Shown: positions 1,431 through 59,380 of the stretch, piece after piece
How positions within the stretch are numbered: the stretch's first letter is position 1
How the letters are laid out: each line of letters opens with the position of its first letter
Source of the DNA: Neoarius graeffei
Taxonomy: Eukaryota; Chordata; Actinopteri; Siluriformes; Ariidae
Reading direction: 5' to 3'
Length of the DNA stretch: 64,000 nt
NCBI RefSeq assembly: GCF_027579695.1
Contig: NC_083582.1
Span: 2,628,378-2,692,377, forward strand
Program-made: the position numbers and the translations under genes
Notes under the pieces: generated by a model
Seen by the model: only the letters and a program-made list of their open reading frames with translations
What the model was told of the DNA's origin: nothing
The model's database searches: none

Positions 1431-1759
1431 CACTGTGCATCGTCAGGACCGCGCTGTCACTTGCACACCAAAAAAAAAAAATCCATACCATAAATTGAAG
1501 AATGCAGAGTACTTTCTGCACCTAAATGTCTCCTATTCCCCTCTGAAACCTATCGAAATAGGAAGATATTGTAATATATAGGTCTAGACCAGGGGTTCTC
1601 AACCTTTTGCAACCTGGGCCCCACCAAAGCCGGTTCATTGCAGTTGGGGGCCCCTCTTCTCGCCCCGCCCCCATCCCCCCCCAAACACACTCACCCGCAG
1701 TGACGCCACCCGACCTACAGCACCTTATATCGACCGATAGATAGATAGCCCTGGGCTAG

Positions 1760-2016
1760 ATTATTATTAGTAGTAGTAGCAGTAGCAGCAGTAGTAGCAT
1801 TATCCATTCCATAGAAATACATAGGCCTATTATCATTATTAGGCTATTGTTATAATTGGCAGTAGCACCACATTTCTAATCTGCTTTCGGGCATTATTAT
1901 AATTATTATAATTATTATTATTATTATTATTATTATTATGGCCTATTATCATTACTAAGCTGTTGGCAGTAGTACAAGACTTATGTTCTTTCAGGCATTA
2001 TTATTATTATTAGGCC

Positions 2017-2047
<31 letters not shown>

Positions 2048-2140
2048 GCTGTTGTTGGTTGTTGATATTATTATTATTATTATTATGCTATTATTAATAG
2101 GCATTATTATTTATTATTATTATTATTATTAGTGTTTTTA
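1760..2140. repeat. (ATT)n-rich tracts inside the hAT element
   Basis: Several interrupted runs of ATT/TTA between the hAT left terminus and the transposase stop codon. Confidence 0.85.
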
Positions 2141-2252
2141 TTAGGTATTTTATTAGGCTTATCATTAGCTGGCTATTGATATCATTGGGAATTGGGACCA
2201 GGCGTGAATTTAGGTTTTACTTTTTACTGTGCCTTTGTGATCTGCATTTGCA

Positions 2253-4067
2253 TTAATGCGAGACCTGAGCCTGCTTTGCCTTACAAAGATCCTCGATTCT
2301 TGGCGAAATGTTTGACAAGCACAGTCTCAAGTCATCCTCAATTTGCGCACGATTGCGATATTTCGTTTTGAGCGCAGTCATTTTTGAAAATCCTGCCTCA
2401 CACAAGTAGGTCGATGCGAATGGGATGAGCAGTTTCAAGGCTACGTCACACAGTTGCGGGTACTCCTGCATCAATGCTGCCCAGAATGTTGAAAGAGGGC
2501 ATGAGGTGAAGACTGCCTTAAGTCTACTGTCACTCTTCAGCTCAATAAGCTGTTCCTGCATGTCAACTGGAAGTTCGTCAGCAGTACACACAAATGGATC
2601 TCGAACCCACGCAAAAGAGCGATAATCCTCTGTGAAGTATGCCGCAAACTGTTTTCTCATTACCGACAGGTGCTCTGACGCTGCTTGAAAGACAGATGAG
2701 AAATCGTGGGAAGTGCCTGCATTACTGATAAAGTCTGCAAGGCTTGGGAACATATCACAGTTCCCCCGACTGATGCGGCCACACCAGAGGTCAAGTTTTT
2801 GCTTGAAGGCATCCACTTTCTCTGCGAGAAGCAAAATGTGAGTTTCTCGGCCTTGCAAAGACAGGTTCAAGCCATTCAAGCGGTCAAATATATCGACCAA
2901 ATAGGAGAGACACGCCAGCCACAAAGGGTCATCCAGATTTTTCGCCAGGTCTGAATTGATTTGTGTCAAAAACCGCTTCACCTCATCTCGCAGCTCATAC
3001 AAACGTTGTAACACCCGCCCCCTGGACAGCCAGCGAACCTCAGTGTGCAGAAGCAGCTGTTCGTGCTCTGACCCCATCTCCTGACAGAGGACCTCAAACA
3101 AGCGAGAGTTTAGCGGCCGTGACTTGATGAGGTTGATCATTTTTACTGATTGGTTCAGCACGGATTCCAACAGAGACGGCGTTTTTTTTGCAGCGAGTGC
3201 TTCGCGATGAACCATGCAATGGGTCCATTTTACAAGTGGAGCTACCTGCTTAACGCGAGCAGCTAGACCTTGCTCACGGCCCGTCATTGCTCGTGCGCCA
3301 TCCGTGCACAAGCCAACGCATCGGTCCCACGCCTTCCCATTCTCGCGAATAAATGAATCAAGGACATTGAAGATGGCCTCTCCAGTTGTGTGTGACTGAA
3401 GAGGGCGGCAAAAAAGGACATCCTCCTCAATTAATTTATCCCTGACATACCTGACATATGTAAGAAGCTGTGCCTGTCCAGCAATATCGGTAGACTCATC
3501 CAACTGCAAGGCATAGTATGGACTATTTTTAATAAACTGTATTAATTGCTCTCTGATATCATTGGACATATCAGCAATTCTCCGAGCAACTGTGTCATTT
3601 GAAAGTGGCACGGTGCCTAATTTGGCTGCTGCACCATCCCCGAAGAATATTCTGCACATGTCCTGCGCAGCTGGCAAAACGAATTTCTCGGCATCAGTGT
3701 GCGGTTTCCCTAGCTTACCTATTCTTTTTGCCACCACATATGATGCCTCCAGGCACTGCTTAGATACAGTGCTGTGCATGGAAATTGTTGCCTGTTGCTG
3801 ATGCAGGCCATCACGCTTTCTTTGAAAGTATTCAAGCGGTTTGTCCTTCAGGCCAGCATGCTTCGTTTCGAGGTGCCTTTTAAGTTTGCATGGCTTCATG
3901 CTTTCGTTTGCCAGCACCTCGGCACACACGACACACTGAGGACGAAGATCAGAGGTGACGGTAAAACCAAACTGCAGGTATGATTCATCGTACGTCCGAA
4001 GCTTTCTCGCAGCTGGTGGTAGACCTATGTCAGTTGTCTTGGGTTTTTTGACAAGAAATCTATCCAT
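2253..4067 (-). CDS. hAT transposase (BED finger, intact ORF)
   Basis: A 604-residue uninterrupted ORF. Order: BED-type zinc finger (C45, C48, H65, H70); RNase-H-like catalytic core with D190 (LQLDESTD) and D256 (LCTDGARAM); the C-x2-H pair C284/H287; and the C-terminal hAT dimerisation region with E557 in CEAGFSKM. Length and order match Charlie/ZBED-type hAT transposases, which cut and paste DNA and leave 8-bp duplications. An intact frame implies either recent activity or retention of the protein; a domesticated ZBED-type gene is possible but one terminus and a target site are still visible, which favours a transposon. No host exon structure was seen. Confidence 0.85.
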   Translation of the reverse strand: MDRFLVKKPKTTDIGLPPAARKLRTYDESYLQFGFTVTSDLRPQCVVCAEVLANESMKPCKLKRHLETKHAGLKDKPLEYFQRKRDGLHQQQATISMHSTVSKQCLEASYVVAKRIGKLGKPHTDAEKFVLPAAQDMCRIFFGDGAAAKLGTVPLSNDTVARRIADMSNDIREQLIQFIKNSPYYALQLDESTDIAGQAQLLTYVRYVRDKLIEEDVLFCRPLQSHTTGEAIFNVLDSFIRENGKAWDRCVGLCTDGARAMTGREQGLAARVKQVAPLVKWTHCMVHREALAAKKTPSLLESVLNQSVKMINLIKSRPLNSRLFEVLCQEMGSEHEQLLLHTEVRWLSRGRVLQRLYELRDEVKRFLTQINSDLAKNLDDPLWLACLSYLVDIFDRLNGLNLSLQGRETHILLLAEKVDAFKQKLDLWCGRISRGNCDMFPSLADFISNAGTSHDFSSVFQAASEHLSVMRKQFAAYFTEDYRSFAWVRDPFVCTADELPVDMQEQLIELKSDSRLKAVFTSCPLSTFWAALMQEYPQLCDVALKLLIPFASTYLCEAGFSKMTALKTKYRNRAQIEDDLRLCLSNISPRIEDLCKAKQAQVSH

Positions 4068-4260
4068 TTTGTTAAAGTATTTGTGAATAAACGTGTGTAA
4101 TAAAGTTGTAACGATAAGTCTGTAGTAGGCTAAGTCTGTAGTAGGCTAAGGGGGCTAACCAGAGGGAACGTATGGGGCTTATCAGTGAGAAACACGATCG
4201 ATATCTTTATTCGGGGATTTTATAGTTGCAAATTTTAACGAGGTGTGAATGGTGTACTTA

Positions 4261-4263
<3 letters not shown>

Positions 4264-4298
<35 letters not shown>
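4264..4298. repeat. (GT)n microsatellite
   Basis: About 17 GT units upstream of the hAT transposase start. Confidence 0.9.
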
Positions 4299-4300
<2 letters not shown>

Positions 4301-4821
4301 ACAGTTGGATTTTTCACACGCAGGGTGAAAAAGGCAAAGGGGTAGTAGACTAGCAGTAAGAAAACAACAAAAACAACAAATTATTTGGGTAGAGCTGAAA
4401 TGGGGAAAGCAAAAATACAGTGTGGGGTAGTAGTCTTTAAAAAGACTGTTTGGGTTTTGCGCTGTATCGATGGATTGATGATTGTAAACTAGCAAGAGTC
4501 GGTACGAGTTAACTCGGCAAGAAACCAGACTAGTGTGTGTGTGTGGCAAGCACTCGCACGGTGGCCACGGTATGCAGACTCACTCACGTGACGTTGCGTC
4601 ATGTTCGCGTCACGGGCTTAAAATAACCTACACACAAGATTTTATGATAGATTGATGATAGATTTTATAATAGTATTGATTTGTATGTAATAGTCCAATG
4701 TCCTGCATTTTGACATGGGTAAATGTGTTGCATCTGCTTAGCTACTATAGCCTGTTAGCCCCAGATTTTTTTTTTTTCCTCCATACATGAAGCCTACTCG
4801 CGACCCCCCTGGAGTACCTCC

Positions 4822-5172
4822 GGAAGGGTGACGAATTGGTGTAAACCAAACGGTGTGGAAAAGGCCGTTTTTTTCTTGGGATAGTGGAGTCAAGGGGATC
4901 TGCCAATATCCCTTCGTCAAATCCAGCGTTGAATAGAAGCGAGCAGTGCCGAGTCGATCGAGCAACTCATCAATACGAGGCATTGGGTACGCGTCAAATT
5001 TAGACACCGCGTTGACTTTTCTATAGTCCACACAGAACCGGACCGACCCGTCGGCCTTGGGTACCAAGACCACTGGGCTGCTCCAGTCACTGTGGGACTC
5101 CTTGACGATGCCCATTTCGAGCATGGTCTCAAGTTCTTCCTGAACCACCTTTTTTTTTTTTTGTGTGTTCAG
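4822..5172 (-). pseudogene. Reverse transcriptase N-terminal part of the Gmr1-type element
   Basis: Follows integrase directly, separated by a short A-run frameshift (5151-5162). RT motifs visible: SPVVLVPKADGSVRFCVDYR, then FYSTLDLTKGYWQIPL. Truncated at about 4822 before the catalytic YxDD, where hAT-like sequence begins; a frameshift also lies at about 4880. Confidence 0.85.
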
Positions 5173-5189
5173 GTAGCCTGTAAGGGCGG

Positions 5190-6630
5190 CTACGCACTAC
5201 CACCCCTGGGGGCGTCTCTAATGTGGTGCTCTGTGAGGGTAGTGCGACCGGGCAGGGGCGAGAACACATCCGAAAACTCGGTCTGCAACTGGGCGACCTC
5301 CGTGAGTTGGGTCAGGGAGAGGTGGTCTCCACAGGGGACCGGAGAGGTACGTGATGCCAATGCCCCTTTTTGAACCTCCGGCCCCAGCTCCGCCTTCTCC
5401 GAAACCACCAACGCCACGGGGACCTTCTCATTCCAGAGTTTAAGCAGATTGAGGTGGTAAATTTGTAGCGCCCCACCCTTGTCCGTTCGCCTCACCTCGT
5501 AGTCGACGTCCCCGACTCGCCGTGTGACCTCAAAGGGTCCTTGCCACTTGGCGATCAATTTGGAGCTCGATGTGGGCAGCAGTACGAGTACCTTATCTCC
5601 CGGTGTGAACTCCCTAAGACGCGTACCCTTGTTGTACAGGTGGGCTTGCCGTTCTTGGGCCTGCCGCAAATTCTCCTGAGTTAGGTGGGTGAGCGTGTGG
5701 AGTTTTGCGTGCAGGTCCATAACGTATTGAATTTCGTTCTTACTTTGTGAAGGTCCCTCCTCCCAATTTTCCCTCAGCACGTCTAGAATGCCGCGCAGCT
5801 TACGCCCATATAATAATTAGAACGGGGAGAACCCCGTGGAGGCTTGGGGGACCTCTCGCACTGAAAACAACAAGGGCTCAAGCCACTTATCCCAATTACG
5901 TGCGTCTTCACTTATGAATTTTTTTTATGATATTCTTGAGGGTGCGATTGAATCGTTCCACTAAACCGTCCGTTTGTGGGTGATGCACGCTGGTGCGGAT
6001 CGGCTTAATCCCCAATAACCCATACAGTTCGTGCAGTGTCCGTGACATAAATGTAGTGCCTTGATCAGTCAGAATCTCTTTCGGGATTCCAACTCGGGAA
6101 ATAACGCGGAAGAGTGCCCCCGCAATACTGCGTGCTGAGATATTGTGCAGAGGCACTGCTTCCGGGTATCGCGTTGCATAGTCCACCAGAACTAATATAA
6201 AGCGGTACCCTCGTGCTGACCGATCTAATGGCCCGACGAGATCCATCCCAATTCTTTCGAAGGGGGTCTCAATTAATGGAAGACGGCGCAAAGGTGCTTT
6301 TGGAATGGCCGCTGGATTCACTAACTGGCATTCGCGGCACGCCGTACACCACCTACGGACATCCCCGCGAATCCCCGGCCAATAGAATCGGGCCATTATT
6401 CGGGCTAGTGCCTTATCCTGCCCTAGGTGTCCAGCCATGGGATTAAAGTGCGTGACTCGCTCTTTAGTTTGAGTGTCCTGCGTCACTCGGTATAACCTAT
6501 CCTTCATAATAGAGAAATAGGGGAAGGACGGGGTGGCGTTCGGCGGGAGCGTTTGACCATCGATTACTCTCACTTGGTCAAACGCATGTCGCAGAGTCTC
6601 GTCTCGCGATTGTTCTAACGGGAAATCCAT
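5190..6630 (-). pseudogene. Integrase of the Gmr1-type element
   Basis: 6630-5908 has the HHCC zinc module (HFNPMAGH ... CTACRECQ) and the catalytic core with D in GMDLVGPL, D in ILTDQGTTF and E in DGLVERFNRT, 35 residues apart (DD35E). 5780-5190 continues into the C-terminal GPFEVTRRVG domain. The 5780-5908 gap has indels and stops. Integrase joins element DNA to the chromosome. Confidence 0.85.
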
Positions 6631-6699
6631 GAGGGATTCCCCGAGAGAGGAGGAGCCTGGGGCTCCTCACTCTGACGCGGAGATGACGTAGACGGCTCT

Positions 6700-7497
6700 G
6701 CTAAATGGCAGGACCCACTCTCTACTAAGCGTGTCATGAAATCCCGGCCAATCAGTCCCCAAAATTATAGAGTGGGTAAGGCGAGGATTAACCGCCGCCT
6801 TCACTATAAATTTTTCCCCTCAGAAAAAAATGTGGACTGACACCAAAGGGTAGCTGTGAACATCCCCGTGCACACACAACACCTTCACCCCCTGTGCTCC
6901 CCCCAGTGCCTCGTTTTGCACCAGGCTTTGGTGAATTGAGGTCTGATTACAACCAGAATCCACCAACGCCTGATATGTATCCCCTTGAATACTCACCGGT
7001 ATGCGACACACTCCGGCCCGATCGAGGGTGGCTTCTGGCGCGTCGGAGATCCGAACCACCGCGCCCACCTCCATTGCCGTGCACTGCTGTTGGAGGTGGC
7101 CCGGTTCCCCGCAGCACCAGCAAACCGGCCCGGGCTTCCTCTCTGCACCGGTGTTCTGGGGCTCACTCACCTGAGGGGGGGGAGAGAGAGACACAGAAGG
7201 GAGAAATGGGAGGGCACCGCAGGTGCGGCGGGCCGGCTGGGGTGGCGCCGGCCCCCGCCTCCGCGGTGGGGGAATGGGGCGAGGACGGGACACAGGAGGA
7301 GAGAGAGAGAGAAGAGGAGGGAAGAGAAGAGGCTGTCTGCTGTCCTGCCGCCGGAACAGCCGCCAAATGGTCCTCCGCCAGCTCGATGGCCTGATCCAGC
7401 GAAGCCGGGCGGTGGCACTGGACCCACTCCGTGGTTCCTGCTGGCAAGCGCGCGACAAACTGCTCCAGCACCACCTGATCGACGATCTCCTCGGCAT
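6700..7497 (-). pseudogene. Zinc knuckle and aspartic protease of the Gmr1-type element
   Basis: Contains a CCHC knuckle (CWCCGEPGHLQQQC, C-x2-C-x4-H-x4-C) and a retropepsin active site (ALVDSGC). The second protease landmark, ILGTDW, is found further on in a different frame (about 6750), so the protease is frameshifted near 6820. Confidence 0.7.
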
Positions 7498-7516
7498 CGC
7501 GGTTGTTGGCCCTCAG

Positions 7517-8037
7517 TCACCGCCAGCAGGCGTCCCGGAGTTGCTGGCCAAACGCGAACGGCCGGCCGACTTCCTCCAAGCGCAAGGCGCGGAAGCGCTG
7601 GTGCTGCTGTTCCGGGGTGCGCCCCACGCCCTGGAGGACGGCCCGGCGGAGGTCCGCGTAGGCCAGCTGGCGGTCGGCGGGGAGCTGTAGCGCGGCCAGC
7701 TGCGCCTCTCCCATTAGCAGAGGGAGGAGGCGCGCTGCTCCATCGGCCACCCCGAGGCCTCGGCGACTTGCTCGAAGAGCGTGATAAAAGCCTCGGGGTC
7801 ATCCTGCGGACCCATCTTGGTTACGGTGGGGGGGGGGGACGGGCCCACGGTGGGAGCGCTGGTGGACCCCGCCGACGCGAGGAGGTGCCGGAACACCTCC
7901 CGATCTTCGTGCTGGGCCAGCACCAGGGCCTCAAAGCGCCGTTCCTGTTCCTTGCAGAGGGTGACTAGCGCCTGGTGCTGGCTTTGCTGGGCCGTGGCGA
8001 GGGCGTGGACCAGGTCGGCGAACAGGGAGGACTCCAT
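7517..8037 (-). pseudogene. gag of the Gmr1-type element
   Basis: Starts at an ATG 30 bp after the primer binding site. The N-terminal part is helical with a PEAFITLFE motif typical of gypsy-type Gag, and continues in another frame from 7750 down to 7517. At least one frameshift lies near 7715-7750. Gag would form the virus-like particle. Confidence 0.65.
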
Positions 8038-8067
8038 GGGGCTGATCGGCTGCTGTACTCCACAATA

Positions 8068-8085
8068 TCCCGGGTTTCAGCACCA
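8068..8085 (-). other. Primer binding site of the LTR element
   Basis: TGGTGCTGAAACCCGGGA on the minus strand, one base inside the LTR end. It starts with TGG as expected for pairing with a tRNA 3' CCA; which tRNA is not determined. Confidence 0.6.
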
Positions 8086-8086
8086 C

Positions 8087-8361
8087 TGTAGCGGTTCAGT
8101 ACTGGTGGGTGGAGCACAGAGGACGGCAGGACAGAGATCAGGTTCAAAATAGCGTTTATTGCTACACTTTTCAGTTTAACAATTGTAACTTGAACAGACA
8201 CACACGACTGGCATCTTGTTCAGGGATGAGCTCCCCTCTGCTCTCAGCTTTCCCTCTTTAAATAGGGCGCGGTCACTGGGAAGACACACAAACACAGGTT
8301 AATTGCAGTCAGGTGTAGTGATTCTGCCACTTACCTTCCCTGACTCCGCCCTCCTGTCACA
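8087..8361 (-). repeat. 5' LTR of the Gmr1-type element
   Basis: Read on the minus strand it starts TGTGACAGGAGGGCGGAG and ends CTACA, about 275 bp. It contains a TATA-like ATTTAAA (near 8255-8263) and an AATAAA (near 8154-8160) at suitable spacing. Only one LTR was found. Confidence 0.7.
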
Positions 8362-8494
8362 GACCGGCGCTTGGCCACGCCCCCGCAAACCCCCGAAGAT
8401 AAGACAAGTAGGAAAAATAGAGAAAAAGGATCTGGAGCATTCGTTGCAGGCTGCATGCGAGCTGGCGCATGCCCACTTAGCAAGGCAAATTTGA

Positions 8495-8540: not shown

Positions 8541-8608
8541 GACATTAAAAACGTTTCTCAGCAGTGTGCGTGATGAAAAACTACGTTTCTGCTTCTTTTT
8601 TTTCGCAG

Positions 8609-8720
8609 TATCGCAGTTGGCGTGGGTTTCTATGGTAACAGTGAGACCAATGATGGAGTGTATCAGCTGACCTACTCCCTGTACAACACCAATCGCACAC
8701 TGGTGGGAGTGGAGAACCTG
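8609..8720 (+). CDS. ttyh2: ttyh2 window exon 1
   Basis: Acceptor tttcgcag before 8609 and donor gtgagg after 8720. The first base completes a codon begun in an upstream exon, so at least one coding exon lies further 5'. It encodes [19 protein letters not shown] and the sequon NRT, the start of the extracellular region after the second membrane span. A LINE-type 3' tail ends only ~70 bp upstream. Confidence 0.9.
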
Positions 8721-9102
8721 GTGAGGAAAAAATGCACGTCTGTTCTCCATCGCGCACACTGACGCTGTGTGATTAGCATTAGCAACACTCACTGTGGTGT
8801 CTATTACATAATTATCAGTAAGAACACGGTGTTGTGGAAATATGATTGGATGGGTCTTGGATCTTGTTCCTCTTGTGACAGCTTTCGTCTACTTTGGGCG
8901 GGATTCAGAGCGGGATGAAGGAACACTTGTCCCGATTGGACGAGATATTCGCCACGCGAGGTGACTTTGTTAAATCGCTGACGTTTGTGCAGCAGATGGC
9001 GGAGAACCTTATTAAACAGTTGTTGGGTTTGCCGGATTGGGACCGGGCCAAAGTGGATCTGACGCACATCGCTGACCGCACTGCGACTATTGAGTACTAC
9101 AG

Positions 9103-9139
<37 letters not shown>

Positions 9140-11393
9140 GTTCAGAGTCATTTATACACTACAGAGTCACTCAGCACGGACCTCGTTGATTCAGTGAATC
9201 AGTAGCAGATTGATGAAGTGAGTCAGTGCTTTAGTGATGCAGAGAATGAGTACGTGTTTAATTTAAGTGAGTCGGTATCTTTATTTGAGTCAGTCTGGCC
9301 ATTCTCTGTCTCCTGAGAGTCAGCAAGTTCGGCTTTGATTCAGTAATTAACTGAATTTGTTGCTGCAGTAAGTCAGTACGTTACTGATTCAGTGATTCAT
9401 TACTTTATTGATTCAGCAAGTTAATCTGTTTATTGATTCATTGAATCAGTAAGTTATTGCGTCATTGACTCAGGACAGTATTAGTGAGTTAGTGCCTTGT
9501 TGATAGTCAGTCAGTATCTCAGTGATTCAGTGAGTGTAAAACATTTGTAGGTTTCAGTAAAAATGCATCGCTGTTGTTTTAGTAAGGTGTGTGTGTGTGT
9601 GTGTGTGTGTAGGTGGCTGACATATCTGCTGATTCTGATCGTTGATCTGTTGATCTGTCTGTTGGCGTGTCTCGGTCTGGCCAAGAAATCACGCTGCCTT
9701 CTCACAACGTAATGTTTATCACATGCACGTACGCACTGTTTCATTCACACAGATTTCCTGCATAAATACCATCATCCTGCGCGCGCACACACACACACAC
9801 CGATTCCAAAAAAGTTGGGACAAAGTACAAATTGTAAATGAAAACGGAATGCAATAATTTACAAATTTAAAAAACTGATATTGTATTCACAATAGAACAT
9901 AGACAACATATCAAATGTCGAAAGTGAGACATTTTGAAATTTCATGTCAAATATTGGCTCATTTGAAATTTCATGACAGCAACACATCTCAAAAAAGTTG
10001 GGACAGGGGCAATAAGGGGCTGGAAAAGTTAAAGGTACAAAAAAGGAACAGCTGGAGGACCAAATTGCAACTCATTAGGTCAATTGGCAATAGGTCATTA
10101 ACATGACTGGGTATAAAAAGAGCATCTTGGAGTGGCAGCGGCTCTCAGAAGTAAAGATGGGAAGAGGATCACCAATCCCCCTAATTCTGCGCCGACAAAT
10201 AGTGGAGCAATATCAGAAAGGACTTCGACAGTGTAAAATTGCAAAGAGTTTGAACATATCATCTACAGTGCATAATATCATCAAAAGATTCAGAGAATCT
10301 GGAAGAATCTCTGTGCGTAAGGGTCAAGGCCGGAAAACCATACTGGGTGCCTGTGATCTTCGGGCCCTTAGACGGCACTGCATCACATACAGGCATGCTT
10401 CTGTATTGGAAATCACAAAATGGGCTCAGGAATATTTCCAGAGAACATTATCTGTGAACACAATTCACCGTGCCATCCGCCGTTGCCAGCTAAAACTCTA
10501 TAGTTCAAAGAAGAAGCCGTATCTAAACACGATCCAGAAGCGCAGACGTCTTCTCTGGGCCAAGGCTCATTTAAAATGGACTGTGGCAAAGTGGAAAACT
10601 GTTCTGTGGTCAGACGAATCAAAATGTGAAGTTCTTTATGGAAATCAGGGACGCCGTGTCATTCGGACTAAAGAGGAGAAGGACGACCCGAGTTGTTATC
10701 AGCGCTCAGTTCAGAAGCCTGCATCTCTGATGGTATGGGGTTGCATTAGTGCGTGTGGCATGGGCAGCTTACACATCTGGAAAGACACCATCAATGCTGA
10801 AAGGTATATCCAGGTTCTAGAGCAACATATGCTCCCATCCAGACGACGTCTCTTTCAGGGAAGACCTTGCATTTTCCAACATGACAATGCCAAACCACAT
10901 ACTGCATCAATTACAGCATCATGGCTGCGTAGAAGAAGGGTCCGGGTACTGAACTGGCCAGCCTGCAGTCCAGATCTTTCACCCATAGAAAACATTTGGC
11001 GCATCATAAAATGGAAGATACGACAAAAAAGACCTAAGACAGTTGAGCAACTAGAATCCTACATTAGACAAGAATGGGTTAACATTCCTCTCCCTAAACT
11101 TGAGCAACTTGCCTCCTCAGTCCCCAGACGTTTACAGACTGTTGTAAAGAGAAAAGGGGATGTCTCACAGGGGTAAACATGGCCTTGTCCCAACTTTTTT
11201 GAGATGTGTTGTTGTCATGAAATTTAAAATCACCTAATTTTTCTCTTTAAATGATACATTTTCTCAGTTTAAACATTTGATATGTCATCTATGTTCTATT
11301 CTGAATAAAATATGGAATTTTGAAACTTCCACATCATTGCATTCCGTTTTTATTTACAGTTTGTACTTTGTCCCAACTTTTTTGGAATCAGGG

Positions 11394-12499: not shown

Positions 12500-15400
12500 A
12501 TGTTGTTCATTATTATCTGTACTGCAGTCAGACGCTTCCCAATCCGTTCCAGCAGGTCTGTATAATTCTCTCTCACTGTATTAATCATGTATCTCATTAG
12601 CGATGTGAGTAACGCACTTAACACTCCAAACATTTAACGAGTCTCTGATTCACTTCACTAGTAATCGGATTCACCGAGTCGTCCCAGTCTAACTCTCTCT
12701 CCAGTTACTATTTTATGATTCTGAATGTCACGAGATTAACAAGCATTAAGTTAGCTTTTTTTTTTTGTATTATGACCTCGAGAGGAAGTGACATCACTGT
12801 GACTGCCTGCTGATCCTGTATCAGTTTCTCCTGCAGTCTCTGACGATCGTCCAGAGATCTCTGACCGCCATGCAGATTCAGGTTCAGGGGTTATTACAGT
12901 TCGCCGTGCCGCTCTTCCCTACTGCTGAGGTACACGCACGCACGCGCACACACACTTTGATTCACATCAATTTACAAACAACCAAAATACTGACTCACTG
13001 ACGAAATAACATGTTGAGTCACATCTCAGTGACTCGGTACAGTACTGAATGATGAGATTCGGGTCGGTACTGATTCACTGACTTGTAGGTCAGTTAGGAA
13101 TGGCTCGGTATAGTACTGAGTCACTCACTTAACAAGGTACTAAACTGCTAATTCTCGGACTCCTTCAGTCCTGACTCGCTGAACAAAGTACTGTATTATG
13201 AATCACTGGCTTGAGAAGTGCTGATTTACTCTCTTAAGAAAGTAAGACATTACTGGCTCATTGACGATATTTATTGTACTGATTTATTGAATCAATGCGG
13301 GACTGAATTACTGGCCGAGAATCAGTACTGTATTGAATCAATACGGTACTGAATTACTGGCCGAGAATCAGTACTGTACTGAATCACGGACTTATTGAAT
13401 CAATACGGTACTGAATCAATACGGTACTGAATCACTGGCCAAGAATCAGTACTGTACTGAATCACACACTTATTGAATCAGTATGGTACTGAATCACAGA
13501 CTTATTGAATCAATACGGTACTGAATCACTGACAGAATCAGTACGGTACTGAATCACAGACTTATTGAATCAATATGGTACTGAATTACGGACTTATTGA
13601 ATCAATACGGTACTGAATTACTGGCCAAGAATCAGTACTGTACTGAATCACGGACTTATTGAATCAATACGGTACTGAATCACTGGCCAAGAATCAGTAC
13701 TGTACTGAATCACTGGCCAAGAATCAGTACTGTACTGAATCACTGACTTATTGAATCAATACGGTACTGAATTACTGGCCAAGAATCAGTACTGTACTGA
13801 ATCACGGACTTATTGAATCAATACGGTACTGAATCACTGGCCAAGAATCAGTACTGTACTGAATCACTGGCCAAGAATCAGTACTGTACTGAATCACAGA
13901 CTTATTGAATCAGTATGGTACTGAATCACGGACTTATTGAATCAATACGGTACTGAATCACTGACAGAATCAGTACGGTACTGAATCACAGACTTATTGA
14001 ATCAATACGGTACTGAATCACGGACTTATTGAATCAATACGGTACTGAATCAATACGGTACTGAATCACTGGCCAAGAATCAGTACTGTACTGAATCACA
14101 CACTTATTGAATCAGTATGGTACTGAATCACAGACTTATTGAATCAATACGGTACTGAATTACTGACAATCAGTACGGTACTGAATCACTGGCCAAGAAT
14201 CAGTACTGTACTGAATCACGGACTTATTGAATCAATACGGTACTGAATCACGGACTTATTGAATCAATACGGTACTGAATCAATACGGTACTGAGTCACT
14301 GACAGAATCAGTACTGTACTGAATCACGGACTTATTGAATCAATACGGTACTGAATCACGGACTTATTGAATCAATACGGTACTGAATCAATACGGTACT
14401 GAATCACTGGCCAAGAATCAGTACTGTACTGAATCACAGACTTATTGAATCAGTATGGTACTGAATCACGGACTTATTGAATCAATACGGTACTGAATCA
14501 CTGACAATCAATACGGTACTGAATCACGGACTTATTGAATCAATACGGTACTGAATCAATACGGTACTGAATCACTGGCCAAGAATCAGTACTGTATTGA
14601 ATCACACACTTATTGAATCAGTACAGTACTGAATCACGGACTTATTGAATCAATACGGTACTGAATCAATAAGGTACTGAATCACTGACAGAATCAGTAC
14701 GGTACTGAATCGCTGGCCAAGAATCAGTACTGTACTGAATCACAGACTTATTGAATCAGTATGGTACTGAATCACGGACTTATTGAATCAATACGGTACT
14801 GAATCACTGACAGAATCAATACGGTACTGAATCACGGACTTATTGAATCAATACGGTACTGAATCAATACGGTACTGAATCACTGGCCAAGAATCAGTAC
14901 TGTATTGAATCACACACTTATTGAATCAGTACAGTACTGAATCACGGACTTATTGAATCAATACGGTACTGAATCAATAAGGTACTGAATCACTGACAGA
15001 ATCAGTACGGTACTGAATCACTGGCCAAGAATCAGTACTGTACTGAATCACGGACTTATTGAATCAATACGGTACTGAATCACGGACTTATTGACTCAAT
15101 ACGGGACTAAATCAATACGGTACTGAATCACTGGCCAAGAATCACTACTGTACTAAATCAAAGACTTATTGAATCAGTATTGTATTGAATCACTGACTTA
15201 TTGAATCAGTACGTTACTGAATCACTGACAGAATCACTACAGTACTGAATCACTGGCCGAGAATCAGTACTGTACTGAGTCACGGACTTATTGAATCAGT
15301 ACGGTACTGAATCACAGACTTATTAAATCAAAATGGTACTGAATCAATACAGTACTGAATCACTGGCCAAGAATCAGTACTGTATTGAATCACAGACTTA

Positions 15401-18400
15401 TTGAATCAATATGGTACTGAATCACTGGCCAAGAATCAGTACGGTACTGAATCACTGGCCAAGAATCAGTACTGTACTGAATCACAGACTTATTGAATCA
15501 GTACTGTACTGAATCACGGGCTTATTGAATCAGTATAGTACTGAATCATGGACTTATTCAATCAATATGGTAACGAATCAATACGGTACTGAATCACTGA
15601 CAGAATCAGTACGGTACTGAATCACTGGCCAAGAATCAGTACTGTACTGAATCACGGACTTATTGAATCAATATGGTAATGAATCAATACGGTACTGAAT
15701 CACTGACAGAATCAGTACTGTACTGAATCACAGACTTATTAATTCAATACGGTACTGAATCAATACGGTACTGAATCACTGGCCAAGAATCAGTACTGTA
15801 CTTAATCACAGACTTATTGAATCAATATGGTACTGAATCACTGACATATTGAATCAATATGGTACTGAATCACTGACTTATTGAATCAATACAGTACTGA
15901 ATCACTGACAATCACTACGGTACTGAATCATGGACTTATTAAATCAGTATGGTACTGAATCACGGACTTATTGAATCAATACGGTACTGAATCAATACGG
16001 TACTGAATCACTGACAGAATCAATACGGTACTGAATCACTGGCCAAGAATCAGTACTGTACTGAATCACAGACTTATTGAATCAGTACGGTACTGAATCA
16101 CTGGCCAAGAATCAGTACTGTACTGAATCACGGGCTTATTGAATCAGTATGGTACTGAATCATGGACTTATTCAATCAATATGGTAACAAATCAATACGG
16201 TACTGAATCACTGGCCAAGAATCAGTACTGTACTGAATCACGGACTTATTGAATCAATACGGTAATGAATCAATACGGTACTGAATCACTGACAGAATCA
16301 GTACTGTACTGAATCACAGACTTATTGAATCAGTATGGTACTGAATCACGGACTTATTGAATCAATATGGCACTGAATCAATACTGTACTGAATCACTGG
16401 CCAAGAATCAGTACTGTACTGAATCACGGACTTATTGAATCAATACGGTAATGAATCAATACGGTACTGAATCACTGACAGAATCAGTACTGTACTGAAT
16501 CACAGACTTATTGAATCAGTATGGTACTGAATCACGGACTTATTGAATCAATATGGCACTGAATCAATACTGTACTGAATCACTGGCCAAGAATCAGTAC
16601 TGTACTGAATCACAGACTTATTGAATCAATATGGTACTGAATCACGGACTTATTGAATCAGTATGGTACTGAATCACGGACTTATTGAATCAATACGGCA
16701 CTGAATCAATACGGCACTGAATCACTGGCCAAGAATCAGTACTGTACTGAATCACAGACTTATTGAATCAATATGGTACTGAATCACGGACTTATTGAAT
16801 CAGTATTGTACTGAATCACGGACTTATTGAATCAATACGGCACTGAATCAATACGGCGCTGAATCACTGGCCAAGAATCAGTACTGTACTGAATCACAGA
16901 CTTATTGAGTCAATATGGTACTGAATCACGGACTTACTGAATCAGTTGATAAGATGTTGCAGACTGACATAGTTACAAAGCCTAAATAATCATCTTTGCA
17001 AGTCGTCATCAAGGACACACAAACATCTGACTTGCAGGCATCCCTCCCAACATTCAAGGACAGAAGACTCCACTTCTCCTCGGATGGATTTCCCAAATAG
17101 CATGAAAAAATTGCTCCCAATGGCTACACTCTCCTTTTTCCAGCCCAAATCTCTCGCGACAAGCAGTGTATCCAGTTCATCAAAATTGTGTTCGTCCAGG
17201 ACTTTCAGCTGGCTACAAATCTTTTTCACCATCCAAAAGATACATGTCATCTCCAATCCTTTCACCCTCAAACCAAATGGAACATTTAGAAAGGCTTGTT
17301 TGATGTACTCTGGGTCCCTGCAAATGGATGTAGTGTTGAAAACAAGCTGGGACCCGATGTTGACACTATTCCTGTGTTGATAAGAAACAGAAAACATAGA
17401 GCACATTTAACCCTGGGGGTGAACCAATCTAATCTCCTTCCTGTTTTAAAACAGCATCAGAGTGCACAACCAAATATTGCTTCTAAAATTTCTGCAACGC
17501 TAGCTCTTCTGAACATTAGATCACTTTTAAACAAGTCATTTTTAATTAATGATCTTATTTGTAAACACAGTCTTGATTTTTTGCTTCTAACTGAAACTTG
17601 GCTGGATCAAGCAAATAGTGCTACCACCCTGATTGAAGCAGCTCCCCCAAATTATAATTTTTTGAATGTTACCCGACAAGGGAAAGGTGGAGGGATCGCA
17701 AATATATTCAAAGTCTCTTTTCAATGTAAACAATCCTCACTTGGTGATTTTATGTCCTTTGAACACTTATGTGCACTTGTTACATGCTCTCCTAACATAT
17801 TATTAACTATTTACAGGCCTCCGAGACATTCAGCCAAAGTCTTTCTTGAAGAGTTTGGTGAACTGTTATCAGTCATTTGCTTAGAGTTTGATTGTCTTAT
17901 TATATCTGGGGATTTTAACTTGCATGTAGATAATACTGATAACATTTATGCCAAAGAACTATTTGCAATTATTGATAACTTTAACCTAGTACAACATGTT
18001 CAGGGGCCGACCCACTCTCGTGGTCATACTCTTGACCTCGTCATCACAAAGGGTCTTACTGTTTCTTATACTGTTGTTGACCTGGCCTTATCTGATCATT
18101 TCTGTGTTTTCTTTGAAGTTTCTATGTCTCCTCACATTCAGAACAGCTCAACGACTATGGGTAGGAGAGTTATAAAAGACAACACGTGCTGTTTTTGAGC
18201 AAGCTCTCTCTCAGATCTCAACCAAAATGTCAGACTCTGTAGATGATTTACTGGAAACTTTTAATTTAAATATGACCCAAATTATGGATGATATTGCTCC
18301 ATTCAAAATAAAAAGAGTCAATGATAAGTAGAAAGCACCATGGAAGCAGTACCCAGCTGTTAAACTGCTAAAGAGAGAATGTAGGAAGACTGAAAGAAAA

Positions 18401-21038
18401 TGGCGCAAATCTAAACTTCACATCCATTATCAAATCCATAAAGAGATGCTTTGTAATTATAATTATGAAATTCATAAAGCAAGACAGTCTTTTTTCTCCA
18501 ACATCAACAGGAATATGAACAATGCCCGTGTGCTATTTTCAACAGTAGAGAAGCTAACTAATCCCCCACCACAATTAGCACCTGAACTTCTCTCAGTTAA
18601 TAAATGCAATGAGTTTGCATCCTTCTTCAAAGGTAAAATTGATAAAATACGGCAGAATATTTCTCATAATATATCTCAGTTGCAAAAAATTGAAAAACTG
18701 CAATCACCAATGACACAGATAGATAACTTCAACACAATGTCAGAATTTTGTTTAATTGATTATGAGACTCTTAAAAAAACTGTACAAAATCTCAGTTCCT
18801 CAACATCTGAACTGGACATTCTGCCCACCAACTTTTTTAAGTCTGTTCTTCATCTTATAATTACAGATGTGCTTCAAATTATAAATACATCCTTGGAGAC
18901 TGGCATTGTTCCTGTGTCCCTAAAAAAAAACTGTTGTAAAGCCCCTTCTTAAAAAAAATAATCTGGATCCTTCAGTGTTAAATAATTACAGGCCAATATC
19001 AAATCTACCATTCATCGGGAAAATCCTGGAAAAAATTGTCTTCAATCAATTAACTGCCTTCTTGATATCAAACAGCCGTTTTGATAATTTTCAGTCAGAA
19101 TCTCGTGCCAATCACAGCACTGAAACAGCGCTGATTAAAGTTATAAATGACATGCATCTTAATACTGATGCAGGCAAAACATCGGTCCTGGTGTTACTGG
19201 ACCTCAGTGCAGCTTTTGATACTGTAGATCACAACATACTGCTATATCGACTTGAACACTGGGTTGGATTGACTGGTAAAGTTATCAATTGGTTAAAATC
19301 ATACTTAAAAGATAGAAGCTTCTTTGTTACCCTGGGAAATTGTTCCTCAACGTCAATGTCCTTGACCTGTGGTGTCCCCCAGGGGACGATCCTTGGACCA
19401 TTACTTTTCAACCTTTATATGCTCCCACTTGGGCAAATTATCAATAAAAATTCAATTTTGTATCACTGCTATGCAGATGATACCCAAATTTATTTTGCTC
19501 TATCACCTAATGATTATGCCCCCCTTGAATGTCTCTACCAGTGCATCGATCAAATCAATAGCTGGATGTCACAAAATTTTCTTCAGCTGAACTCAGATAA
19601 AACAGAAGTAATTCTATTTGGAAAAAAAGATGAAAGACTCAGGATTACCACTATTCTTGACACAAAAGGGATTAAAACTAAAGAAATGGTTAAAAATCTT
19701 GGTGTTTTCATTGACAGCGAGCTAAACTTTGACAGTCACATGAAAGCAATCACTAAAACGGCATTTTATCACCTAAAAAACATTTCCAAACTAAGAGGAC
19801 TTATGTCAAAACATGATCTGGAAAAACTAATACATGCCTTCATCTCTAGTAGGGTTGATTGCTGCAATGGCCTTTTCACAGGCCTGCCAAAAAAGACCAT
19901 CAAACGACTTCAGCTGGTTCAAAATGCAGCGGCGAGGGTTCTCACACGAACAAAAAGAACAGAGCACATTACTCCAATTCTAAGGTCCCTTCACTGGCTT
20001 CCAGTAAGCTACAGAATTGACTTTAAAGCATTGCTGCTGGTGTACAAATCTCTAAATGGTACAGGGCCCAGTTACCTCTCTGATATGTTGCAGTGGCCGA
20101 ACCCAATCAGATCTACCAGATCGCAACAGAAAAATTTACTATTAAAACCTGTTGTTAAAACAAAGTGTGGTGAAGCAGCTTTTAGCTACTATGCAGTACA
20201 GCTATGGAACCAACTGCCAGAGGACATCAAAAATGCTCCTGCTGTTGGCAGCTTCAAATCTAGACTAAAGACCAAGCTGTTCTCAGATGCTTTCTGTTAA
20301 ATAATTAATATTGTCTTCTTTACATTCTTTATAATCTTTACTTCTCTGCATGTTTTAAATTTTCTTTAACTTTATCCTATTTTATTCTTTATTCTATTCT
20401 ACTGGGGTTTTTTTTCTTCTTTCTTTCTCATCTTATTTGAACTACTACTTCATTTTATTGTTTTGTTTTTACTGTTTAATTCTTATTGTTTTCTTTTAAT
20501 TCTTTTAATTAATTGTTTTAGAATAAAAATTTATTTTATGTAGTTTTATTTCTCTATTGTTTACTGTTTTTGTTTTTACTTCTGTAAAGCACATTGAACT
20601 GCCATTGTGTATGAAATGTGCTATATAAATAAACTTGCCTTGCCTTATTGAATCAATACGGTACTGAATCACTGACTTATTGAATCAGTACGGTACTGAA
20701 TCATTGGCTGAGAATCAGTACTTTACTGAATCACGAACTTATTGAATCAGTCTGGTACTGAATCAATACAGTACTGAATCACTGGCCAAGAATCAGTATG
20801 GTACTGAATCAGTACAGTACTGAATCACTGGCCAAGAATCAGTATGGTACTGAATCAATACGGTACTGAATCACGGACTTATTGAATCTGTACGGTACTG
20901 AATCACGGACTTATTGAATCAGTACGTTATTGAATCAGTATGGTACTGAATCACAGACTTATTGAATCAGTACGGTACTGAATCAACAAATAACTACATC
21001 ACTGGGTCTGATGCCCTTGGTGTGTTTGACTTCTTAAG

Positions 21039-31028: not shown

Positions 31029-32110
31029 TCAGGGCCCGTTTACACGAGGACGCTGTCGGGTAAAAACGACTAAATATTTTATCAGAAGTGCCTTTCGTTT
31101 ACACGAGGACGGCGTTTCCGAGGCTGAAAAACGGATAAAATTGAAAACGCCTTCCAGAGTGGATAAGTTAAAAACGGCCCCCGTTGCATATCCGTCTAAA
31201 CTACCCAATACGCGAAACTCTGCTCGGATCTGCTCACGTCGGGTACGCGTTTACGTCATACATATGTCATATACTGCACATGCCAGCCCGGGAAGTAAGA
31301 AAGTAAATAAAAAAGTAAGAGCATGTCTGATTACATCGATCCAACGGACCTTCAAGCTGCTCTGTGTTTTAATGCAGTAGATGTGTTTTCCTGCTCACCC
31401 GCCTGGCTGGAGCTCCTCAGTTTGGTATCGCCAAGTTACACACACACGCACGCGCACGCCGCCTATTCAAGCCGCTCGTGAAACCATAAACCCGAGACTG
31501 AAAACAAAACTAACAGCCGAACGGGTTTATTTTGCTGAGATGGACACTGCCTTTTCTCTTCTTCACCGAAACAAGAGTGAGTGTTACTTAATAAAGGCAG
31601 ATTAAAAGAGTTTCGGTTTGCTCCTGCTCCTCCCTCGAGCACTACAGTACCTCAGCCGGACCGGTGTTCTGTAAAGTTATCCTAGCAAGTTCTCATACAG
31701 ACCGTTTTATTATTCAAAACAAGTCATTACAAATTATTTGACTTGGCCAAAGACTCGACCAATACGCACAAAACATAAAAATCGGCAAATGCGTGAAATT
31801 CTCACCGATTTTCTTTCAGCCCAGCTGATCGGTGGGACAAAACCACTGTTGAATTTTCCCACCCTCCTGGATTTCGCGCATGCGTAGTAGGCTTGGTAGG
31901 ATAACTTGACAGAACAGCGGCGCAGATGTGCAGATCAGACAAGACAGAAGACGTTGCGCATGCGTGCAGACATAGCGGAGACATTTATGCGTCACCGTAT
32001 AGACGCAGATTTCCTCCTTGAAAATGGTCGTGTAGACGCAGAAAAAAGTGAGAACGAAAACGGACTTTTGCGTTTTTGTTTTATACCGTCCCCGTGTAAA
32101 GTGGGCCATA
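31029..32110. mobile_element. hAT-type non-autonomous element
   Basis: Left end GGGCCCGTTTACACGAGGACG and right end complementary in type (CGTCCCCGTGTAAAGTGGGCC), with further inner copies of TTTACACGAGGACG near 31098. A familiar layout of fish hAT MITEs. Target site duplication not resolved. Confidence 0.55.
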
Positions 32111-32116
32111 GACTTT

Positions 32117-32498
32117 TTCATTCATCTCATCTCATTATCTGTAGCCGCTTTATCCTGTTCCACAGGGTCGCAGGCAAGCTGGAGCCTATCCCAGCTGACT
32201 ACGGGCGAAAGGCGGGGTTCACCCTGGACAAGTCGCCAGGTCATCACAGGGCTGACACATAGACACAGACAACCATTCACACTCACATTCACACCTACGC
32301 TCAATTTAGAGTCACCAGTTAACCTAACCTGCATGTCTTTGGACTGTGGGGGAAACCGGAGCACCCGGAGGAAACCCACGCGGACACGGGGAGAACATGC
32401 AAACTCCGCACAGAAAGGCCCTCGCCGGCCACGGGGCTCGAACCCAGGACCTTCTTGCTGTGAGGCGACAGCGCTAACCACTACACCACCGTGCCGCC
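32117..32498 (-). mobile_element. tRNA-derived SINE, full length
   Basis: Minus strand. Head GGCGGCACGGTGGTGTAGTG with A box (TAGTGGTTAGCGC) and B box (GGTTCGAGCCC), a ~300-bp body and the 3' tail GAGATGAGATGA. Flanked by a perfect 13-bp duplication GGCCATAGACTTT (32104-32116 and 32499-32511), which shows LINE-type insertion. It sits at the right edge of the hAT MITE. Confidence 0.92.
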
Positions 32499-33175
32499 GG
32501 CCATAGACTTTGGTGAACATAAAGTGAAGAATGTCAAAATGTCAGAATTTAGGCTATGACTGCAGCACATCCAACAATAAAGGGCCAATATCCGGAATTG
32601 CCCAAGGGATATCACCGGGCACCCTCTCTTATCTTAATGAGTAGACCTTGGACAACAACAAACAGCAAAAAAAAAAAAACTTTAACCGACGAAGCCAGGT
32701 TCAGCCAAATTTGGGCCTTTGGCTCCCGGACTAAGGCGGATAAATTTGAGTCACTAAACTAATAAACGACTTTCTCAAGTAGAAAGTTTGGCTGTTGCTT
32801 GGATTTTATTGTGTGGCTAAATCCTGTCAGGTTGGTTAGCGTGTTAACGTGTTAGCATGTTAGCGTTAGAGCCACTTGAGCCTGTGTATTGTGCTAAAGC
32901 GAGTGTAAACTTCAACTCCACTGTAGTTCGCTTCATCCATCTCTCCTCAGTATGTGAGATTTCCCTGACGGAGGTGGCGGATTAAAAGGGATTGATCACA
33001 CGTTCACCATCTCTCTCACCAGACTTTGAAATTTAAAGCCTTTGAATTTTAGCACTAATTTTTCTGTAATTAAGTTATGTGAATTTTTTTGCCTCTGGAT
33101 TCCATGCAAGTTTTCAATATTTCATTTTCACTGATAGCGGAGCTCCACGAGCGGCGCCCCAAAGGCACAGAGTAC

Positions 33176-34699: not shown

Positions 34700-35640
34700 A
34701 CAGTGGTGTGATATGAAGTTTATCGTCGAGTGGTGAGTGTATATATCACGAGTAAGTGAAGTGAGTTAGTGAAAATATTTTTCAACACAAGATAAACTTC
34801 ATATCTGCGCACCATGGTGTAATGTTCTTTATATTATATTATATGGACACATCCACACAAAAAAACACAAGTTAATCAAAAGAATTTTAATGTTGAACCA
34901 GTTCGCCATTTTGATGGCGCGTGTCTCGTCAGCGGGAAAACACTGGGAGTGACATAATCGGAGTGAAATATTGGGAAATATGTCACTCAGACCCGCAATG
35001 TATTTCATATGAAAAATGCGAGTTTTTCAACATGAGAAGATAAACTTCATATCTTCAACCCAATGTGTGACTCATCTCATCTCATTATCTGTAGCCGCTT
35101 TATCCTGTTCTACAGGGTCGCAGGCGAGCTGGATCCTATCCCAGCTGACTACGGGCGAAAGGCGGGGTACACCCTGGACAAGTCGCCAGGTCATCACAGG
35201 GCTGACACATAGACACAGACAACCATTCACACTCACATTCACACCTACGCTCAATTTAGAGTCACCAGTTAACCTAACCTGCATGTCTTTGGACTGTGGG
35301 GGAAACCGGAGCACCCGGAGGAAACCCACGCGGACACGGGGAGAACATGCAAACTCCACACAGAAAGGCCCTCGCCGGCCCCGGGGCTCGAACCCAGGAC
35401 CTTCTTGCTGTGAGGCGACAGCGCTAACCACTACACCACCGTGCCGCCCCCAATGTGTGACTTTTCTTTTTATTATATTGATACATTCACAAACAAAAAG
35501 TCCCCAAATTTATCAAAACAATTCACTGTTTTCCTCACGAGTGACAGATAAAGATTTATGTCCTGGTTTTGATTCTCCACATCCCGGATGGAGCTCAGAT
35601 GAAAAATACCTGTGGTCTATTTCACACTAAAACACTCGAG
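34700..35640. repeat. Dispersed repeat with internal duplication
   Basis: An ~85-bp segment at 34785-34865 (TCAACACAAGATAAACTTCA) reappears at 35023-35072 and 35463-35505, the second copy being split by a SINE. Family not recognised. Confidence 0.45.
35073..35448 (-). mobile_element. tRNA-derived SINE, full length
   Basis: Same family as 32117. Flanked by a 14-bp direct repeat CCCAATGTGTGACT (35059-35072 and 35449-35462). A and B boxes intact; tail GAGATGAGATGA. Confidence 0.92.
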
Positions 35641-39457: not shown

Positions 39458-41059
39458 CCCCGATTCCAAAAAAGTTGTGACAAAGTACAAACTGTAAATG
39501 AAAACGGAATGCAATAATTTACAAATCTCAAAAACTGATATTGTATTCACAATAGAACATAGACAACATATCAAATGTCGAAAGTGAGACATTTTGAAAT
39601 TTCATGCCAAATATTGGCTCATTTGAAATTTCATGACAGCAACACATCTCAAAAAAGTTGGGACAGGGGCAATAAGAGGCTGGAAAAGTTAAAGGTACAA
39701 AAAAGGAACAGCTGGAGGACCAAACTGCAACTCATTAGGTCAATTGGCAATAGGTCATTAACATGACTGGGTATAAAAAGAGCATCTTGGAGTGGCAGCG
39801 GCTCTCAGAAGTAAAGATGGGAAGAGGATCACCAATCCCCCTAATTCTGCGCCGACAAATAGTGGAGCAATATCAGAAAGGAGTTCGACAGTGTAAAATT
39901 GCAAAGAGTTTGAACATATCATCATCTACAGTGCATAATATCATCAAAAGATTCAGAGAATCTGGAAGAATCTCTGTGCGTAAGGGTCAAGGCCGGAAAA
40001 CCATACTGGGTGCCCGTGATCTTCGGGCCCTTAGACGGCACTGCATCGCATACAGGCATGCTTCTGTATTGGAAATCACAAAATGGGCTCAGGAATATTT
40101 CCAGAGAACATTATCTGTGAACACAATTCACCGTGCCATCCACCGTCGCCAGCTAAAACTCTATAGTTCAAAGAAGAAGCCGTATCTAAACATGATCCAG
40201 AAGCGCAGACGTCTTCTCTGGGCCAAGGCTCATTTAAAATGGACTGTGGCAAAGTGGAAAACTGTTCTGTGGTCAGACGAATCAAAATTTGAAGTTCTTT
40301 ATGGAAATCAGGGACGCCGTGTCATTCGGACTAAAGAGGAGAAGGACGACCCGAGTTGTTATCGGCGCTCAGTTCAGAAGCCTGCATCTCTGATGGTATG
40401 GGGTTGCATTAGTGCGTGTGGCATGGGCAGCTTACACATCTGGAAAGACACCATCAATGCTGAAAGGTATATCCAGGTTCTAGAGCAACATATGCTCCCA
40501 TCCAGACGACGTCTCTTTCAGGGAAGACCTTGCGTTTTCCAACATGACAATGCCAAACCACATACTGCATCAATTACAGCATCATGGCTGCGTAGAAGAA
40601 GGGTCCGGGTACTGAACTGGCCAGCCTGCAGTCCAGATCTTTCACCCATAGAAAACATTTGGCGCATCATAAAACGAAAGATACGACAAAAAAGACCTAA
40701 GACAGTTGAGCAACTAGAATCCTACATTAGACAAGAATGGGTTAACATTCCTATCCCTAAACTTGAGCAACTTGTCTCCTCAGTCCCCAGACGTTTACAG
40801 ACTGTTGTAAAGAGAAAAGGGGATGTCTCACAGTGGGAAACATGGCCTTGTCCCAACTTTTTTGAGATGTGTTGTTGTCATGAAATTTAAAATCACCTAA
40901 TTTTTCTCTTTAAATGATACATTTTCTCAGTTTAAACATTTGATATGTCATCTATGTTCTATTCTGAATAAAATATGGAATTTTGAAACTTCCTCATCAT
41001 TGCATTCCATTTTTATTTACAATTTGTACTTTGTCCCAACTTTTTTGGAATCGGGGTTT
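39458..41059 (+). mobile_element. Tc1-like DNA transposon, copy 2
   Basis: Termini CCCCGATTCCAAAAAAGTTG and the complement ending CCAACTTTTTTGGAATCGGGG at about 41055. One transposase ORF. Nearly identical over its length to 9798-11395. The right flank shows TTA after the terminus, but a clear TA duplication is not seen at the left, where the flank reads GCAACCCC. Confidence 0.92.
39763..40890 (+). CDS. Tc1-like transposase, copy 2
   Basis: 375-residue ORF; likely start at 39817 (MGRGSPIPL). Same helix-turn-helix and DD34E core as copy 1: [24 protein letters not shown]. It reads through the site where copy 1 stops (W for a stop one codon on) into [15 protein letters not shown], ending in terminal-repeat sequence; copy 1 may therefore have the ancestral end and this one an extension, or the reverse. 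No internal stop, so possibly functional. Confidence 0.88.
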
Positions 41060-42324: not shown

Positions 42325-43165
42325 AGGTTTGTCCAATGTCACCTAATGGTTAAGAACAGTGTACATATTGCGCTGAGTACAAGCAGGGACTCCAGCGAGA
42401 CTAACTATGACAGCATAACTAAAAGGGGAGAGCCAGAAGGTAACACAGGCATGAGGGGCCCCGGGACATAAAGCAGCAGCCACTACACCGTCAACAAACT
42501 CGAGTGAGCAAGCGAGTGGGGACTGACAGCATCCATACATCCCAGTTTACCAAAACACTCTGTCTGAGGATCCTCCAGATCTCCTCCTTTACCTCATAAA
42601 CACCATTAACACAAGGCTTGACTAAACAGATCTGTTTTCAGCCGAGACTTAAACACTGAGACTGTGTCTGATTCCCGAACATTACTTGGAAGGCTGTTCC
42701 ATAACTATGGGGCTTTGTAAGAAAAGGCTCCGCCCCCTGATGTAGCCTCCACTATACGAGGTACCAGCAGATAGCCTGCACCTTTTGATCTAAGTAGGCG
42801 TGGCGGGTCATAGAGGAGCAGAAGTTCACTCAGGTACTGTGGTGCGAGACCATTTAGTGCTTTAAAGGTCAATAGTAGTATTTTATAATCAATATGAAAT
42901 TTGATTGGGAGCCAATGCAGTGTGGATAAGACAGGCGTGATGGGGTCATATTTTCTAGTTCTAGTAAGGACTCTTGCTGCTGCATTTTGAACTAACTGGA
43001 GCCTGTTTATTCTCCTACTGGAACATCCAGACAGTAAGGCATTACAATAATCCAACCTGGAGGGAACGAAGGCATGAACTAGTTTTTCCGCATCATGTAG
43101 TGACATTAAATTTCTTATTTTAGCAATATTTCTGAGATGAAAGAAAGCTATCCGGGTAATATTTC
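42325..43165 (-). mobile_element. L2-type LINE 3' fragment, minus strand
   Basis: Matches the plus strand of the full-length element at about 61800-62640: ITRIAFFHLRNIAKIRNLMS, LVHAFVPSRLDYCNALLSGC, then the same 3' UTR (for example CAAGCAGGGACTCC region). 5'-truncated, and the distal 3' UTR is also missing. Lies antisense in the zinc-finger gene intron. Confidence 0.88.
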
Positions 43166-48405: not shown

Positions 48406-48546
48406 AGAACTATAGTTTCTAAAACTATAGTATAACTATAGTCTGTAATACTATAGTCTCCAGAACTATAGTATTACTATAGTATAGTCCTATAGTGACG
48501 AAAATACCATCAAAATACTATAGTCACGATGACTATAGTATAACTA

Positions 48547-59284: not shown

Positions 59285-59380
59285 CAATCCAGAGCCAAGG
59301 CCAGGGAGCAGACGAACAGGCTAAACCGACTGTCTGCTAGCTGCACAGAGTCGTCACTCAGGGCCCACTACATCGAGACT

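Follow-up and report, generated by a model that had tools for sequence, protein, structure and literature searches.

When integrase is found upstream of reverse transcriptase (RT) in a decayed retrotransposon with Ty3/gypsy-type proteins, is the order original or the product of later damage, and to what kind of element does it belong? The question is raised by a locus in the window, as we call the whole 64,000-nucleotide stretch of DNA analysed here. From about 8393 to 4821 on the minus strand, domain scans and homology place most of one LTR retrotransposon, which, as judged from its sequence, is very probably a dead, 3'-truncated element of the Ty3/gypsy type and of the Gmr1 kind. Other copies of the element in the same genome are referred to below as sister copies.

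Layout of the element

Read 5' to 3', the element consists of an LTR, a primer site, gag, a zinc knuckle, protease, integrase, the integrase C-terminus and the N-terminal half of RT. The original prediction had described this same order, and Pfam profiles and sequence motifs, among them the DSG of the protease, place it on the minus strand. Scanned as separate open pieces, the element gives, in its own order, the Pfam families SCAN, zf-CCHC, aspartic protease, Integrase_H2C2, rve, Integrase_p58_C and RVT_1. Coordinates are those of the window, and all parts of the element described in this section lie on its minus strand.

The sole LTR found, the 5' LTR, spans 8087-8393. Its inner end (...CTACA) is at 8087, and its outer end can be estimated from the sister copies: homology with their LTRs extends to window 8386, which is LTR position 8 in those copies, and thus the LTR probably starts near 8393. 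The original prediction had ended the element at 8361, about 32 bp short of that point. From 8386 inward, the LTR and primer site are 84% identical to the 5' LTR of sister copy L033 over 325 columns. Motifs in the LTR include TATTTAAA at 8264-8257 and AATAAA at 8160-8155. One base past the LTR is the 18-base primer binding site (8068-8085), in which 17 of the 18 bases would pair with the 3' end of animal tRNA-Phe.

Gag (7200-8037, from the ORF list and homology to sister copies) is interrupted in three places: the frame shifts between 7714 and 7798, a stop lies in frame at 7517-7519, and the frame shifts again ahead of the zinc knuckle. Gag contains a SCAN-like domain (7364-7615) that an in-frame stop splits into two open pieces; one piece matches Pfam SCAN at 3.1e-11, and the preceding piece, with the rest of the domain, matches at 0.042, which is below the cut-off. 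The same domain is found in gag of sister copies L033 and L039 at 2.1e-21 each, and in a PDB sequence search a gag piece from the window hits zinc finger protein 24 in its SCAN domain (chain 3lhr, 1.7e-5). The CCHC zinc knuckle (7078-7125; zf-CCHC, 0.0047) and the aspartic protease with its DSG motif (6745-7002; Asp_protease_2, 0.0063, and three-frame view) score below the Pfam cut-offs in the window copy and above them in L033 and L039, where zf-CCHC reaches 2.9e-5. The protease tail carries an IILG motif, named by eye, and in the three-frame view the protease continues in one frame into integrase, across two stops, with no RT between.

The N-terminal zinc domain and catalytic core of integrase occupy 5908-6666 (Integrase_H2C2, 7.2e-16; rve, 3.7e-11). 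The core is of the DD35E type, with catalytic residues D142, D201 and E237 and 35 residues separating the last two; H73, H80, C110 and C113, assigned by eye, agree with the HHCC motif. By sequence, the best solved integrases are those of PFV (5.3e-24) and Ty3 (3.4e-19). The integrase C-terminal domain follows at 5439-5540 (Integrase_p58_C, 2e-9), then an RT leader at 5220-5315 and the N-terminal half of RT at 4821-5196. The latter is cut at 4821, covers positions 1-91 of the 205 in the RVT_1 profile (7.5e-8) and has Ty3 RT/RNase H (4ol8, 3.6e-24) as the best solved RT by sequence.

Comparison with elements of standard order

Several collections outside the genome were searched. There is no relative of the element in viral_contigs (queried with the integrase, RT and integrase-C/RT-leader pieces) or in genome_contigs (queried with integrase and RT), both of them mostly microbes and their viruses, and none among phages queried with integrase only. 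Plasmids gave six records for integrase and three for RT, with three records matching both. Two of these three served as comparators; NZ_CP065945.1 was dropped because its RT and integrase matches are about 16 kb apart. Comparator L001 is NZ_CP087956.1, a circular sequence of 5332 bp filed as a Wolbachia plasmid, with gypsy-type protease, RT and integrase; we infer that it resembles a retrotransposon of the Wolbachia's moth host. Comparator L002 is part of NZ_CP065944.1, a Bacillus licheniformis plasmid record with gypsy-type RT and integrase. With Ty3 chain 7q5b, this makes three comparators of standard order.

On the minus strand of the window, L001 integrase matches at 6459-5475 and L001 RT at 5157-4846. 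The integrase matches precede the RT match along that strand; therefore, the order in the window is permuted. With the same two queries, the RT match in 7q5b is at 601-704 and the integrase match at 1087-1283, and RT is likewise ahead of integrase in L001 and L002. The L001 protease ORF has no match in the window. The RT leader aligns with the stretch preceding RT in L001 at a score reached by none of 2000 shuffles, the stretch and frame having been picked after the frames were viewed. There is no such match with L002, whose alignment score is equalled by 1993 of 2000 shuffles, and the integrase-C/RT-leader piece, searched against the PDB, returned nothing at E up to 1.

Sister copies in the genome

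The window's own genome (2.34 Gb, probably that of a fish), in which the window is C14:2628378-2692377, was searched with an integrase query. It contains at least 161 integrase matches, including the window's own, a lower bound in that 150 of 42,899 first-look candidates were scored. The copies listed besides the window are 93-96% identical, and many have open frames of 1000-1500 codons. The sister copies compared are the first 19 of the 160 other matches, a set biased to young, intact copies. All 19 have gag, protease, integrase and RT in that order, with integrase lying between protease and RT as in the window copy; these are closely related copies rather than independent tests of the order, and the scores of L033 and L039 are identical for most pieces. 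For L022, the comparison covers the five pieces other than the first gag piece.

Stretches of 7,983 bases around the 19 loci were examined for LTRs. In the 18 copies that could be paired automatically, the LTRs are 293-311 bp long and the elements 4911-5075 bp (median 4918). An identical 5-bp target duplication was measured in all 18, with LTR ends selected to favour matching duplications; at plain BLAST ends the duplications match in nine of the 18, and the other copies are shifted. The nineteenth copy, L029, is outside this tabulation because its automatic LTR pair was the wrong repeat; read separately, it has both LTRs, flanked at the usual positions by an identical duplication. Full-length copies with two LTRs, which the original prediction had proposed to look for, are thus at hand: a TG...CA two-LTR structure with a short target duplication is present in 19/19. 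In all 18 tabulated copies the 5' LTR is followed by a primer site, which has no mismatch to the tRNA-Phe site in 15 and one each in L027, L030 and L038, and all 18 have an identical G-rich stretch ahead of the 3' LTR.

A single open frame of 1454-1539 codons runs from gag to the end of pol in 15 of the 19 sister copies; in the other four (L024, L025, L028 and L035) the frame is split. Since gag and pol form one continuous reading frame in those 15, RT and integrase belong together and do not come from two families. In L033 and L039, the two copies scanned by pieces, the remaining RT and then RNase H lie downstream, the L033 piece matching Ty3 RT/RNase H. RT-RNase H ahead of integrase, which by the original prediction's own account would have told against it, as would an origin from two families, was seen in none of the 19.

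Alternative explanations

Rearrangement of a standard Ty3/gypsy element once it had inserted, or the nesting of two fragments, could in principle give a false order, and the window copy is indeed decayed, with a sharp end at 4821 and several frame changes. However, the ORF list has the integrase C-terminus and the RT leader in one common open frame, no LTR match was found between them, and the same order occurs in all 19 of the other copies compared, with two LTRs and target duplications. We consider such an origin extremely improbable, in agreement with the original prediction, and regard the integrase-first order as confirmed to be genuine. The prediction had further described the link between integrase and RT as continuous except for a single frame shift; the shared open frame bears out the continuity, but the shifts number two, near 5200-5215 and 5149-5161. 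The unusual trait of the family is that integrase is translated before RT.

Ty1/copia elements have integrase before RT, and domain order, taken by itself, would suit a member of that group. The proteins point elsewhere: RT matches RVT_1 and Ty3 RT, the integrase has Integrase_H2C2 and p58_C, the RNase H belongs to the RT_RNaseH type, and the Pfam hits include no family named after copia. Neither RT nor integrase is of copia type, and we give a Ty1/copia identity virtually no credence. Gmr1 membership is assigned to this family because of its domain order, its gag type and its single gag-pol frame, and the fact that clade membership rests on these features leaves some room for an independent Ty3/gypsy lineage that gained the integrase-first order separately from Gmr1. 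This is slightly less improbable than the two readings above and still very unlikely, since passages of PMC4592553 and PMC3424704 describe a SCAN-related gag for Gmr1-like elements, and part of PMC4746887 lists the Osvaldo/Gmr clade for four teleost genomes (61, 3, 22 and 1 families). The window copy is a decayed member of an already known kind; its placement in the Gmr1 group, as originally predicted, is supported by the order in 19/19 sister copies, the SCAN-type gag and the single gag-pol frame.

Decay and surroundings of the window copy

By the ORF list and frame views, stops interrupt the reading frame of the window copy at least four times, and the frame changes at least six times. An RT frame change is located near 4868-4874, and the integrase lacks about 51 bp that sister copies have. 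Mean divergence of the window copy from the 19 is 4.7-10%; among the 19, the mean is 0.5-1.1% in three pieces, with values up to 7.3%.

RT homology to L025, L033 and L041, the three copies tested, stops at window 4821. Nowhere in the window did searches turn up another LTR of this element or any more of its RT or RNase H. At this sharp end, RT adjoins an apparent hAT transposon remnant (1590-4820, unstranded), with a left terminal repeat seen by eye at 1590 and a presumed extent to 4820. A hAT-type transposase frame at 2253-4145 on the minus strand is uninterrupted for 630 aa, stop to stop, and matches Pfam Dimer_Tnp_hAT at 2.4e-4, slightly below the cut-off; repeat searches gave no convincing right terminal repeat. 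The simplest reading of the junction would be a deletion that brought RT up against the interior of the hAT element. According to the sister copies, about 1.24 kb is lost from the window copy, namely the remaining RT, RNase H and the 3' LTR; the proposed deletion, later than the insertion, may have removed about this last 1.24 kb in fusing RT to the hAT interior.

On the plus strand adjoining the element, Pfam Tweety matches at about 8601-8741 and 8888-9109 cover profile positions 90-205. The element is antisense to these exons of a neighbouring tweety-family gene and probably sits in an intron of that gene.

Other repeats are present in the window. Two very similar Tc1/mariner-type transposase frames of 360 and 378 aa (by eye, stop to stop) lie at 10094-11176 and 39754-40890, both on the plus strand, and the former matches Pfam DDE_3 and HTH_Tnp_Tc3_2. 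Long frames at 17290-20300 (+), 58109-62367 (+) and 42705-43214 (-) resemble, by eye, the endonuclease and RT of non-LTR retrotransposons. Three copies of one interspersed repeat, whose open stretches are alike and about 100 aa long, were recognized by eye at 32036-32506 (+), 35013-35630 (+) and 57222-57734 (-), and an uninterrupted 443-aa frame at 43586-44917 (+) has many C2H2 zinc fingers, also by eye. Large tandem arrays, with GAATCAGTACGGTACT-type, 26-bp and 33-bp units, are found at 13319-16946, 20645-21002, 47797-48487 and 53677-55166. A lone tRNA-Ala call at 48239-48312, inside the 26-bp array, is probably spurious, and Rfam has no match on the whole window at gathering score.

Probable life cycle and activity of the family

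Intact relatives would most likely follow the usual LTR-retrotransposon cycle. The LTR would drive transcription of the element, and the one frame would be translated into a gag-pol polyprotein, of which the SCAN-like gag may assemble the particle. Presumably, tRNA-Phe would prime reverse transcription and RT-RNase H would carry it out; the DDE integrase would then insert the element, making the 5-bp target duplication.

The 19 sister copies appear to be young. Their LTR pairs are near-identical: among the 18 pairs tabulated, 12 are free of substitutions (gap columns occur in two of them) and the others have one to four. Near-identical LTR pairs are compatible with present-day insertion, and we put the chances at about even that the family is still inserting today in this species, with insertions polymorphic among individuals. 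If so, this would be a Gmr1-type element of high copy number, integrase-first and with one uninterrupted gag-pol frame, that is still inserting. An integrase-first Ty3/gypsy family appears to be both abundant and recently active in this genome.

Comparison with known elements

The clade, its domain order and the link between gag and SCAN are already in print, and the interest of the family is modest in those respects; what is of most interest is its apparent youth and high copy number in this genome. In the portions consulted, Gmr1 elements are described as usually having integrase upstream of RT (PMC8220671), the lineage as having a Ty1/copia-like integrase order (PMC2774666) and the SCAN domain as derived from Gmr1-like gag (PMC4592553, PMC3424704). 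The gag of the present family illustrates that published link with the SCAN domain of vertebrate transcription factors. About 200 Gmr1-like copies are mentioned for a frog in a passage of PMC4131045.

The family shares with the Gmr1 clade integrase ahead of RT (PMC8220671), Ty3/gypsy-type proteins, a SCAN-related gag and one gag-pol frame (PMC11117352); in both copies scanned here (L033 and L039), pol ends with RNase H, downstream of RT. Unlike the clade, the window copy is truncated. For Gmr1-4 of tetraodontiform fish, sections of PMC11117352 give one gag-pol frame of 1506-1634 aa; in the present family, the frame of the 15 single-frame copies measures 1454-1539 aa from stop to stop. The Gmr1-4 consensus is longer, at 6058-6465 bp with LTRs of 337-518 bp in the same sections, whereas the present copies are mostly about 4.92 kb with LTRs of about 303 bp. 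Five ERV-like elements of zebrafish, according to part of PMC8672886, similarly have a SCAN-domain protein between the 5' LTR and pol.

Ty3 and the standard Ty3/gypsy comparators (7q5b, L001 and L002) have related RT and integrase, and for Ty3 also RNase H, but they place RT ahead of integrase. With Ty1/copia, the likeness is in the order of integrase and RT only, as outlined in passages of PMC8220671, whereas the protein domain types differ.
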